Of a DNA stretch of 64,000 nucleotides, positions 52,111 to 54,789 are shown one piece after another. The position numbers and the translations under genes were made by a program. The stretch's first letter is position 1, and every line of letters starts with the position of its first letter. The notes below the pieces were generated by a model. That model did no database searches, was not told the origin of the DNA, and worked only from the letters and a program-made list of their open reading frames with translations. The stretch comes from Butyrivibrio sp. YAB3001 (lineage in GTDB: Bacteria > Bacillota > Clostridia > Lachnospirales > Lachnospiraceae). The stretch covers positions 62,001-126,000 of the forward strand of contig NZ_FOKR01000008.1 of the NCBI RefSeq assembly GCF_900112195.1, in the 5' to 3' direction.

Positions 52111-52245
52111 TTTTATGCGTTTTATTGTATTCTATATGTTGTAGTGTTTTATAGTAAACGTCAGATATATCTGGTGTTCACTATATGTTTACAGCCATTT
52201 TTTAATACAACATATTGGAAGAATCACAACAAAAAGAGTGATACT

Positions 52246-52572
52246 ATGACATGCAAAAATGCTGATAAGATCATTACACAATTTTTGGATGATGATCTTA
52301 ATAATCAAGAACTTGGAGATTTTTTGAATCATATTGATAACTGCCCGGAGTGCAAGGAGGAACTGACAATTCAGTTCCTCGTTAAAGTTGGCATGAAGAG
52401 ACTTGAGGATGGAAATAATTTCAACCTTAAGTATGAGCTTGATAATATGCTAGGTGATGCGAGAAAAAGGCTGAATATGAGAAGATATCTTTTCTTTGCC
52501 AGCCTTATCCTTGAATTCTTAGTTGCAGCGCTTGCGGTATCCACAGTTGTATTAGCTATAGCAATCGGGTGA
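52246..52572 (+). CDS. Zinc-finger anti-sigma-like membrane protein
   Basis: Protein of 108 aa. The N-terminal half is a zf-HC2/ZAS-type domain: HIDNCPEC supplies the H-x3-C-x2-C ligands and an earlier Cys (TCKNADKI) a fourth. A single C-terminal membrane helix (LILEFLVAALAVSTVVLAIAI) anchors it. The layout is that of a small anti-sigma factor, but no ECF sigma gene is adjacent; polA begins 6 bases after the stop. ATG 52246 is chosen; the longer frame from 52144 has no SD. Confidence 0.75.
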   Translation: MTCKNADKIITQFLDDDLNNQELGDFLNHIDNCPECKEELTIQFLVKVGMKRLEDGNNFNLKYELDNMLGDARKRLNMRRYLFFASLILEFLVAALAVSTVVLAIAIG

Positions 52573-52578
52573 GAGATT

Positions 52579-54789
52579 ATGTCAGAAAAAATATTAGAGA
52601 TTTCATTGAATGAATATGTGAGTAATGCCTATAATAGCATTCCTGTGTTTACAGATGCTGACGGTAATCAGATAAGCGGAATTTATGGAACTTTGTTTAA
52701 GCTGATAAATGTTTTAAAAAGCGGTGACTTTGAGCAGATGAGAGTAGCTGAAAAAGGCTCAGAGGATGCTTTAAACAAGGACAGTGCAGCAGTTGGATTG
52801 CAGGTTGAAAAGCTTAAGGAGATACTTAAGCTTTTTTCAGTAAGTGAAGAGGAAATCCTTGTTCCTGTAAATGAGGAATTCATAAGCAGTCTTGAAGAGA
52901 AACTTAACCTGTTTTCTCCTGACGGAAAAGCAAAGGCAGTTCCTCAGTTTACTCTTAAGATGAAGGCTACTTCTGATTTAAGCGAAGTAGATGCGTTGTT
53001 CCAAAATGCCATGGAAACAGGAAGTAAAAAAGACAACTTCGTATCATATTATTTTTTGACAGATGTTGTTCAGAATTCTGACAATAAGCGAAAAGACATT
53101 ATTGGAATGTCGTTGTGTTTTGGAGAAGAAGAGGCCTTTTTTATTCGGGTTGAGAATTTTATCACTGCTGATTATCTGGGGAAAAAGCTTGAAGCCTTAA
53201 GTGAGAAGGTATCTCTTGTTACCTTTGATATCAAAGAGAGTTACAGAGTATTTACTCCAAATGAAATAAAGATCAGAACGGAAGGCTTTGATATGGCGGC
53301 TTTTGAAAATAAAGCAGCTTTTGATGCAACGCCTAAATGTACTGATGTCTTGATTGGAGCGTATCTTTTAAATCCAAATAAAAATGATTATGAACCATCG
53401 GATGTTTCCAAGGAATATTTAAGCCTTAATCTCCCCAAAAAGAATGATCTGTTTGGAAAGGCAAGTCTAAGAAAAGCAGATGAGAAGATAGTTACAGATT
53501 ATGCCTGCAAGATAGCTTATGTCTGTTATAAAGCATCTCCTTTGATACAAAAAAAGCTTTCGAAAGAAGGAATGGAGAATCTTTTTTATCAGATAGAAAT
53601 GCCGCTTTCCTATATTCTTTTTGCAATGGAAAAAGAAGGTATTATTGCTAAAAGAGATGAACTTAAGGTATATGGAGATAAGCTTCAGGTAAGAATCAGT
53701 GAACTTGAAAAAGCAATTTATGAAGCGGCCGGACTTACCTTTAATATTAATTCTCCAAAACAATTAGGAGAGGTACTTTTTGAAAAGTTAGGACTCCCTG
53801 CTGAGAAGAAGACAAAGAGCGGTTATTCAACTGCGGCAGATGTTCTGGAAAAACTGGCTCCGGAGCACAAGATTGTTGCAGACATATTGGAATACAGGGG
53901 GCTTTCTAAATTGAAATCCACCTATGCTGATGGCCTTACAGCTTTTATTGAGAGTGATGACAGGATACATACAAGCTTTAATCAGACAATAACTGCAACG
54001 GGAAGAATCAGTTCTACAGATCCGAATCTTCAGAATATTCCTATGAGAACTGAGCTTGGCAGACTTATCAGAAAAGTTTTTGTTCCTAAGGACGGATATG
54101 TTTTTGCGGATGCTGACTATTCACAGATTGAGCTTAGGATTCTTGCACATATGTCTGAGGATAAAGAGCTTATTTCTGCGTATCATGAAGGAAAGGACAT
54201 TCATGGAATAACTGCTTCTAAAGTATTTCATGTACCTTTTGAAGAGGTAACTCCACTCCAGAGAAGGAGCGCAAAAGCTGTCAATTTCGGAATTGTTTAT
54301 GGAATCAGCGCCTTTGGACTTTCACAGGACCTTTCAATCAGTGTTGGTGAAGCCAAAGATTATATGGAGAAATATTTTGAAACTTACCCGGGGGTTAGAG
54401 ATTACCAGGATAAAGTAATACAGGATGCCAAGGCAAAGGGCTACAGTCTTACCATGTTTGGAAGAAAGAGGCCTATTCCTGAACTCAAGGCAAGTAATTT
54501 CAATTTAAGGCAGTTTGGTGAGAGAGTTGCGATGAATGCGCCTATTCAGGGAACTGCTGCTGATATCATGAAGATTGCGATGATAAATGTCTTTTTCAGG
54601 ATAAAAAAAGAAAATCTTAAGTCAAGACTGATACTTCAGATTCACGACGAACTTGTAATAGAGACCGCTGATGATGAGAAAGATAAGGTTACAGAGCTTC
54701 TGACCCAGGAGATGGAGAAAGCAGCAGCTTTGCTTGTTCCACTTGAAGCTGAATGCCATATCGGAAGCGACTGGTATGAGGCTAAATGA
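52579..54789 (+). CDS. polA: DNA polymerase I with eroded 5'-nuclease domain
   Basis: Family A polymerase of 736 aa, about 140-180 shorter than full Pol I. The polymerase domain is complete: motif A DADYSQIELRILAH, motif B RRSAKAVNFGIVYG, motif C LQIHDELVIE. The central exonuclease-like domain (about 150-300) lacks the DxE motif, so proofreading is likely absent, as in other Firmicutes. Residues 7-90 still align with the start of the 5'-nuclease domain (NAYNSIPVFTDADGN, SGIYGTLFKLI), but the catalytic Asp positions are gone and the rest is missing. Thus it should lack primer-removing nuclease activity. coaE follows 21 bases later. Confidence 0.93.
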   Translation: MSEKILEISLNEYVSNAYNSIPVFTDADGNQISGIYGTLFKLINVLKSGDFEQMRVAEKGSEDALNKDSAAVGLQVEKLKEILKLFSVSEEEILVPVNEEFISSLEEKLNLFSPDGKAKAVPQFTLKMKATSDLSEVDALFQNAMETGSKKDNFVSYYFLTDVVQNSDNKRKDIIGMSLCFGEEEAFFIRVENFITADYLGKKLEALSEKVSLVTFDIKESYRVFTPNEIKIRTEGFDMAAFENKAAFDATPKCTDVLIGAYLLNPNKNDYEPSDVSKEYLSLNLPKKNDLFGKASLRKADEKIVTDYACKIAYVCYKASPLIQKKLSKEGMENLFYQIEMPLSYILFAMEKEGIIAKRDELKVYGDKLQVRISELEKAIYEAAGLTFNINSPKQLGEVLFEKLGLPAEKKTKSGYSTAADVLEKLAPEHKIVADILEYRGLSKLKSTYADGLTAFIESDDRIHTSFNQTITATGRISSTDPNLQNIPMRTELGRLIRKVFVPKDGYVFADADYSQIELRILAHMSEDKELISAYHEGKDIHGITASKVFHVPFEEVTPLQRRSAKAVNFGIVYGISAFGLSQDLSISVGEAKDYMEKYFETYPGVRDYQDKVIQDAKAKGYSLTMFGRKRPIPELKASNFNLRQFGERVAMNAPIQGTAADIMKIAMINVFFRIKKENLKSRLILQIHDELVIETADDEKDKVTELLTQEMEKAAALLVPLEAECHIGSDWYEAK

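Follow-up and report, generated by a model that had tools for sequence, protein, structure and literature searches.

A constrained remnant of the 5'-nuclease domain in the DNA polymerase I of Butyrivibrio sp. YAB3001 and a stand-alone flap endonuclease encoded in the same genome

According to the main text of a 2026 survey (Timinskas; PMC12926913), some flap endonuclease (FEN) is encoded in 99.8% of genomes, and E. coli and B. subtilis are described as requiring one FEN for viability, be it the domain of DNA polymerase I (Pol I) or a discrete enzyme (PMC3783174). In B. subtilis the discrete FenA (YpcP) does the primer work, as is proposed here for a comparable enzyme, and the authors of that work suggested that the Pol I nuclease is unneeded given an active discrete FEN; the B. 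subtilis domain is described as feeble but present, whereas that of the Pol I (PolA) reported here is catalytically gone and mostly deleted (PMC10191290). ExoIX (Xni) of E. coli is likewise a stand-alone FEN beside Pol I, but is reported to be without the three aspartates of the second metal site (PMC3783174), whereas the stand-alone (solo) FEN described below keeps all nine active-site carboxylates. Also alike are PolA1-like polymerases accompanied by a solo Exo5-3, in which a polymerase without a 5'-3' exonuclease is compensated for by a solo nuclease (Timinskas, 2026; PMC12926913). That survey covers presence and absence over ~3000 genomes; the string 'Lachnospir' does not occur in its main text, which is not known to mention a remnant domain or a decay series. 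According to the same text, most Firmicutes Pol I carry a vestigial 3'-5' exonuclease domain (PMC12926913), an inactive nuclease that is retained whole, whereas the remnant reported here amounts to less than half of a 5'-nuclease domain; the corresponding domain of the present PolA is under constraint similar to that on the remnant.

Both solo FENs and Pol I-like enzymes lacking the domain are already known; its repeated replacement together with a constrained remnant appears to be new. Among the matches listed from open-access main texts, none dealt with a lost Pol I nuclease in Butyrivibrio or the Lachnospiraceae. The PolA described here is encoded in a window of 64,000 nucleotides from Butyrivibrio sp. 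YAB3001 (contig NZ_FOKR01000008.1), and its host lineage, Butyrivibrio within the Lachnospiraceae, is indicated by named relatives.

The polA gene and its N-terminal remnant

The strings quoted in a preliminary description of this DNA were found in the open reading frame 52579-54789, which contains the following features:

52579..54789, + strand: polA, encoding a 736-aa DNA polymerase I that lacks an active 5'-nuclease domain (PF00476, E=2.7e-166; PF22619, E=8.4e-7)
52579..52914, + strand: remnant of the 5'-nuclease domain, residues 1-112, predicted b1-a1-a2-b2-a3-b3-a4 mini-fold (alignment, profiles, models)
52579..52914, + strand: the same remnant, from which the arch segment and everything past a4 are absent (alignment)
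52591..52728, + strand: most constrained part of the remnant, residues 5-50 (dN/dS 0.15, residue conservation)
52603..52605, + strand: Ser9, at the site of the first catalytic Asp (IDG; alignment)
52753..52755, + strand: Lys59, at the site of the second catalytic Asp (VAFD; alignment)
52801..52803, + strand: Gln75, counterpart of the conserved Gln of LREQVPLMKEVL, Gln in 45/46 (alignment)
52915..52953, + strand: conserved SPxG linker to the RNase H-like domain, residues 113-125 (dN/dS 0.11)
52954..53568, + strand: RNase H-like (3'-5' exonuclease-type) domain (PF22619; dN/dS 0.11, residues 126-320)
53569..54786, + strand: family A polymerase domain with motifs DYSQIELR, RRSAKAVNFGIVYG and HDE (PF00476, sequence)

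The motifs DYSQIELR, KAVNFGIVYG and HDE, which we take to be polymerase motifs A, B and C, could be read in the sequence. With respect to the three-domain PolA1 type, the protein has the family A polymerase domain and lacks an N-terminal nuclease with conserved carboxylates. It is orthologous to the Pol I of its own genus, the truncated clade being nested in mostly intact Butyrivibrio PolAs in a tree of 88 PolAs. Present as well is an RNase H-like domain, the part of a three-domain enzyme in which a DEDDy site would be expected; like its counterpart in most Firmicutes, it is presumed vestigial. Only six bases separate the end of the upstream gene (52572) from the polA start codon, so that no N-terminal piece of PolA has been overlooked. 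This neighbour (52144-52572) encodes a putative zinc-finger protein (zf-HC2; PF13490, E=9.7e-5) with a C-terminal hydrophobic stretch, and a similar zinc-finger protein adjoins the polA start of another genome (G058, locus L135).

Neither PF02739 nor PF01367 matched the window PolA at E<=1 (Pfam), the protein by itself being too degraded to match PF02739. The homology to the Pol I 5'-nuclease put forward in the preliminary description was nonetheless borne out by comparing profiles: a profile of 41 stubs aligned over residues 4-88 with one of 22 intact nuclease N-termini (98.6% probability, E=7.3e-16), and a repeat beside a shuffle control gave 98.7% (E=2.6e-16) vs. 2.2% (E=0.022) for the best of 30 column-shuffled profiles. 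Against all PDB chains, the top match of the stub profile was the M. smegmatis Pol I (E=0.0018, residues 23-119), followed by Taq (residues 15-108, with an E-value of 0.15 that is weak alone), and both matches fell at the correct N-terminal position. Fifteen truncated Butyrivibrio PolAs matched PF02739 from profile positions 2-5 to 45-98 with E-values of 1.4e-6 to 7.5e-4, all under the curated cut-off of the family. Many truncated PolAs also keep IDG, and read RDAFYAIPDFTDxEGNHIxGxYGAxxKL vs. NRAFYGLPDLTNxEGxHTGAVYGFLNIL in intact relatives.

The lack of a PF02739 match to the window protein alone speaks for a resemblance by chance, or for an artefact of assembly or annotation such as a wrong start or a frameshift, but we give this reading practically no credence and count it as already refuted by the PF02739 matches of relatives, the profile comparison and the PDB search. 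Chance similarity was ruled out by the shuffle control together with the PDB-wide profile search. A missing N-terminus or wrong start was ruled out by the position of the upstream gene and by the short form throughout the clade, which recurs in 46 PolAs, isolates included. A split gene with the remaining nuclease elsewhere was likewise rejected, the single locus above cut-off for PF02739 and the single one for PF01367 in the genome both being the solo FEN; the other matches to these families (one with E=0.23, three with E from 0.06 to 0.53) were all below the cut-offs.

Loss of the catalytic residues was as previously described: the alignment places I-S-L at residues 8-10 for I-D-G, removing the first Asp, and VAEK at residues 56-59 for VAFD, removing the second. 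The remainder of the domain is deleted, with the arch and everything after a4 absent and the later carboxylate sites lacking in the alignment. These later carboxylates and the helical DNA-binding half of the nuclease lie in the part missing from the stub. The first catalytic Asp is retained in 26/46 PolAs of the truncated clade, and its loss is therefore particular to some species. A17, P22, F24, G29, G34, Y36 and G37 are each retained in at least 42 of the 46; across 68 aligned PolAs, intact ones among them, G37 is invariant (68/68), and A17, P22, G29, Y36 and Q75 occur in at least 90%. In one stub (L115, genome G032), a short PAPSGTAND-type unit is expanded in tandem about where the arch was deleted.

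Predicted fold and selective constraint

In a model of the full window PolA built from the 68-PolA alignment (mean pLDDT 90), residues 1-112 were predicted to form b1-a1-a2-b2-a3-b3-a4. The same elements were obtained (mean pLDDT 77) when residues 1-125 were modelled from the 41 stubs without intact nucleases. A Foldseek search of this stub-only model against 350,542 PDB chains returned 174 matches, none of them at E<=0.001. The top four were a full-length Pol I (6vde), an M. smegmatis FEN (twice) and human FEN1, with probabilities of 0.94-0.99, TM-scores by query length of 0.47-0.55 and E-values of only 0.08-0.11; as the E-values for the stub were weak, ranking, probabilities and TM-scores were relied on. 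By probability and TM-score, not by E-value, residues 1-112 thus have a predicted 5'-nuclease (PIN-like) fold even without intact homologues in the alignment. The structure prediction proposed in the preliminary description yielded a nuclease-like mini-fold, not an unrelated one. The interval given there (residues 1-97) is slightly short, since the predicted mini-fold extends to residue ~112.

Constraint was estimated as dN/dS (Nei-Gojobori counts, Jukes-Cantor correction). Among truncated PolAs, 18 non-overlapping pairs gave a dN/dS of 0.152 in residues 5-50 (bootstrap 0.115-0.197), 0.35 in residues 51-112, 0.108 in the linker (113-125), 0.113 in the RNase H-like domain (126-320) and 0.039 in the polymerase. 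Because some pairs were saturated, 8 close pairs were also run, which gave 0.14, 0.30, 0.065, 0.099 and 0.028 for these regions, respectively. In intact PolAs, dN/dS over the corresponding 46 N-terminal residues was 0.055 (bootstrap 0.009-0.123; 8 pairs), and the weaker constraint on the stub therefore indicates that relaxation is also real. The stub is relaxed yet far from neutral, with a level of constraint close to that of the RNase H-like domain.

These values bear on two other readings of the remnant. In favour of a passive fossil under no selection, merely awaiting deletion, residues 51-112 evolve faster (dN/dS 0.35), vary in length and contain the repeat expansion of G032. The core, however, has a dN/dS of 0.14-0.15, bounded above by 0.20 in the bootstrap, and includes the invariant G37, which makes an unconstrained fossil very unlikely; dN/dS disfavours it. 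The word 'fossil' used in the preliminary description is hence misleading for a piece that is constrained and predicted to fold. The stub could alternatively have a new job, serving as a docking site for the solo FEN (or for a different replisome protein), with Pol I and FEN acting in trans as a two-protein holoenzyme. Its core is constrained although catalysis can hardly remain, and the conserved positions include small or hydrophobic helix residues and Gln75, both of which favour docking; but the RNase H-like domain is similarly constrained (0.113), so structural upkeep suffices, and we consider docking unlikely. A structural role, such as support of the polymerase, is what we would assign to the stub.

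The solo flap endonuclease and its distribution within Butyrivibrio

The 4.59-Mb genome containing the window (99.98% complete) has a single PF02739 locus over the cut-off, and this is a solo FEN of 345 aa outside the window (G000:C9:30040-31074; PF02739, 4.8e-45; PF01367, 7.9e-23), carrying both 5'-3' exonuclease Pfam domains and no fused polymerase. At the nine sites that we take, from Taq, to be the active-site carboxylates it reads DDEDDDDDD. All nine were complete in 35/35 solo rows, comprising 24 from Butyrivibrio, where 48 solos were found, and 11 from elsewhere (one of which, from G129, is a different FEN type with 27% identity), and in 24/24 tabulated intact fused domains. In truncated PolAs the letters at these sites are alignment noise, the sites being deleted, and were not used. 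In contrast to FenA (YpcP), the solo FEN scored below the cut-offs of the NCBIfam YpcP and Xni equivalogs (NF011547, 189.9 of 305; NF007017, 122.4 of 261) and highest on a Pol I model (NF004397, 235 of 720), likewise below the cut-off. PDB 3zd8 (ExoIX) is a sequence relative of it (E=1.5e-20).

One RNase HI and one RNase HII are also encoded, so that the enzymes suggested in the preliminary description as worth searching for all occur in the same genome. Its statement that primer removal relies on a separate enzyme is right in that such an enzyme, the solo FEN, is present; the reliance itself would be deduced from genome content. Since both RNase HI (E=2.6e-43) and RNase HII (E=6.5e-46) are encoded, primer removal might instead proceed mainly by these enzymes and strand displacement, with the solo FEN serving repair only. 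RNase HI is, however, unable to remove the last ribonucleotide, which counts against this route. The near-universal occurrence of FENs (PMC12926913) and the described need for one FEN in E. coli and B. subtilis (PMC3783174) also speak against it, and we regard it as quite improbable.

Among 79 Butyrivibrio genomes sampled, 25 carry the nuclease in fused form and lack a solo FEN, with the nine carboxylates complete in 25/25, and 48 have a solo FEN. The latter comprise 42 genomes of the truncated clade, four with otherwise degraded PolA (G020, G021 and G054, outside that clade, and G058, unplaced on the tree) and two in which no PolA was found (G072, G074). The remaining six, with assemblies 64-89% complete, had neither a fused nuclease nor a solo FEN over the cut-off. 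An intact fused nuclease together with a solo FEN was found in 0/79. In one genome with an intact fused PolA (G077, 80% complete), an additional 33-residue PF02739 match lies at a contig edge (G077:C190:2-100).

The truncated PolAs form one clade of 46 (support 99/94) in the tree of 88 polymerase domains, for which a long-branch warning applies to G020/G021. G030 and G055 branch first in the clade, and in one member (G064) the N-terminus runs into a contig end. Of the 46 genomes, 42 carry a solo FEN, and the assemblies of the other four (G027, G052, G053, G064) are 64-88% complete. In G058, where PolA is interrupted by the end of a contig, the first ~80 residues still resemble those of an intact domain, with Gly for the second Asp, and the solo FEN of this genome clusters with those of G030 and G055 (100/99). 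For these reasons, G058 may represent an early stage of decay near the clade of the window PolA.

As a whole, these data are best explained by a newcomer FEN that made the fused nuclease redundant, followed by repeated decay with a folded stub kept, and we hold this explanation to be likely. The lineage of the window PolA would have started from an ordinary three-domain Pol I and come to hold a free-standing, catalytically complete FEN, rendering the fused 5'-nuclease redundant. The fused domain would have lost its catalytic carboxylates, arch and DNA-binding half, the catalytic residues going first or together with large deletions. What would be left is a scaffold of ~112 residues with a predicted fold, under purifying selection much like that on the RNase H-like domain, which may stay as support for the polymerase or, less likely, as a partner-binding piece. 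Labour would be split such that RNase HI, RNase HII and the solo FEN cut, the last removing primers in vivo, and PolA only fills. We infer that the solo FEN arrived before the decay, an order that rests on other genera since none of the Butyrivibrio genomes sampled combines both states.

Such a history would be a natural counterpart of the B. subtilis FenA model and a natural test, several times over, of a discrete FEN freeing Pol I from primer removal. With fused-nuclease and solo-FEN species in one genus, the division of lagging-strand labour between FEN and polymerase, which is eukaryote-like, is directly testable. The series from intact through dead but long to constrained mini-fold is also useful for understanding why dead domains persist.

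Repeated decay and capture in the Lachnospiraceae

Decay of the fused nuclease occurred repeatedly and in parallel. Besides the truncated clade of 46, surveying polA N-termini in the family, as the preliminary description had proposed, revealed separate lineages with degraded domains of assorted lengths (G020, G021, G054, G210, G249, G499 and G365/G457/G520). Whole-domain scoring was feasible for seven rows (G054, G020, G210, G249, G457, G520, G499), which had lost 3-6 of the nine carboxylates; the first Asp was retained in 7/7, with the alignments of such rows being uncertain. Every genome with a degraded PolA outside the clade has a solo FEN (those above and G058). A PolA cut by a contig end (L244) was excluded from the degraded count, as was an apparently broken nuclease in a genome without a solo FEN (G175), where undetermined bases interrupt the reading frame.

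In a reduced tree of 67/93 PolAs, from which 5 long-branched rows and 21 near-duplicates were left out, the starred branches force at least 5 state changes and the best tree has 8. A single loss is thereby ruled out, although the changes are not all proven losses. Long-branch warnings apply to G499/G414, G249/G186 and G205/G251 in this tree, and several degraded rows are long-branched and of unsure placement in the PolA trees. The step-wise loss claimed in the preliminary description is supported by the longer but dead domains of these other lineages; within the clade of the window PolA, the order of events is not directly visible.

An intact PolA together with a solo FEN, the intermediate state expected, was found in G111, G124, G188, G414 and two named genomes. 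Sixteen named genomes were searched. The seven picked because their PolA is degraded or truncated (Lacrimispora defluvii, Clostridium sp. HBUAS56010, [Clostridium] aerotolerans, Clostridium sp. 12(A), and Butyrivibrio NC3005, MC2013 and P6B7) all have a solo FEN (7/7), four of them (12(A), NC3005, MC2013, P6B7) apparently repeating sample genomes G365, G020, G021 and G007. The nine with a nine-carboxylate PolA comprise seven without a solo FEN and the two with both.

A family sample of 200 genomes, one per genus, gave a PF02739 match in 194, and the 16 genomes with a second or weak match were searched again together with 2 of the 6 without; the other fused domains were judged by E-value, not per residue. 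A solo FEN of this type was found in five genomes beyond that containing the window, with an intact PolA in G111, G124 and G188 and a degraded one in G210 and G249. Among genomes >90% complete, none was found to have a degraded PolA without a solo FEN. Two genomes (G276, 100% complete; G115, 96%) had no match to PF00476 or PF02739, and PF01367 gave none in G115 and only matches below the cut-off in G276; such an absence would be unusual if genuine, with masking or missing contigs as possible causes. No PolA was found in G129.

The solo FEN has an insert of ~19 residues after YYGNLP and two further inserts downstream, all common to the divergent fused PolA nuclease of seven other Lachnospiraceae genera (G117, G122, G146, G205, G212, G251, G267; loci L194-L200). 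In a FEN tree rooted on ordinary fused domains, these seven group together (100/96) inside the solos (88/77), and the solos formed a group of their own in 5% of bootstraps. Since the seven fused domains nest inside the solos, the sequences suggest capture of a solo-type FEN by PolA as well, possibly a replacement of the domain by fusion. The G054 solo FEN clusters with one from a different genus (G249; 100/100) rather than with the other Butyrivibrio solos, and was therefore probably acquired separately. As the solo FEN and PolA trees are not simply congruent (G054, G020, G021), transfer and loss complicate the history. Degraded rows had very long branches in a FEN tree that included them, and their positions were not used.

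A wider proposal would be that a PolA-type FEN repeatedly replaces the Pol I nuclease of Lachnospiraceae, remaining free where the fused domain decays and becoming fused elsewhere, and that the Butyrivibrio stub is a non-catalytic adapter coupling PolA to FEN; taken together, we rate this as rather doubtful. In one further genome, the frame of an insert-bearing PolA (G153:C54, L203) is interrupted, giving a 505-aa nuclease/RNase H-like frame and a 427-aa polymerase frame, which reflects either a real split or a sequencing error.
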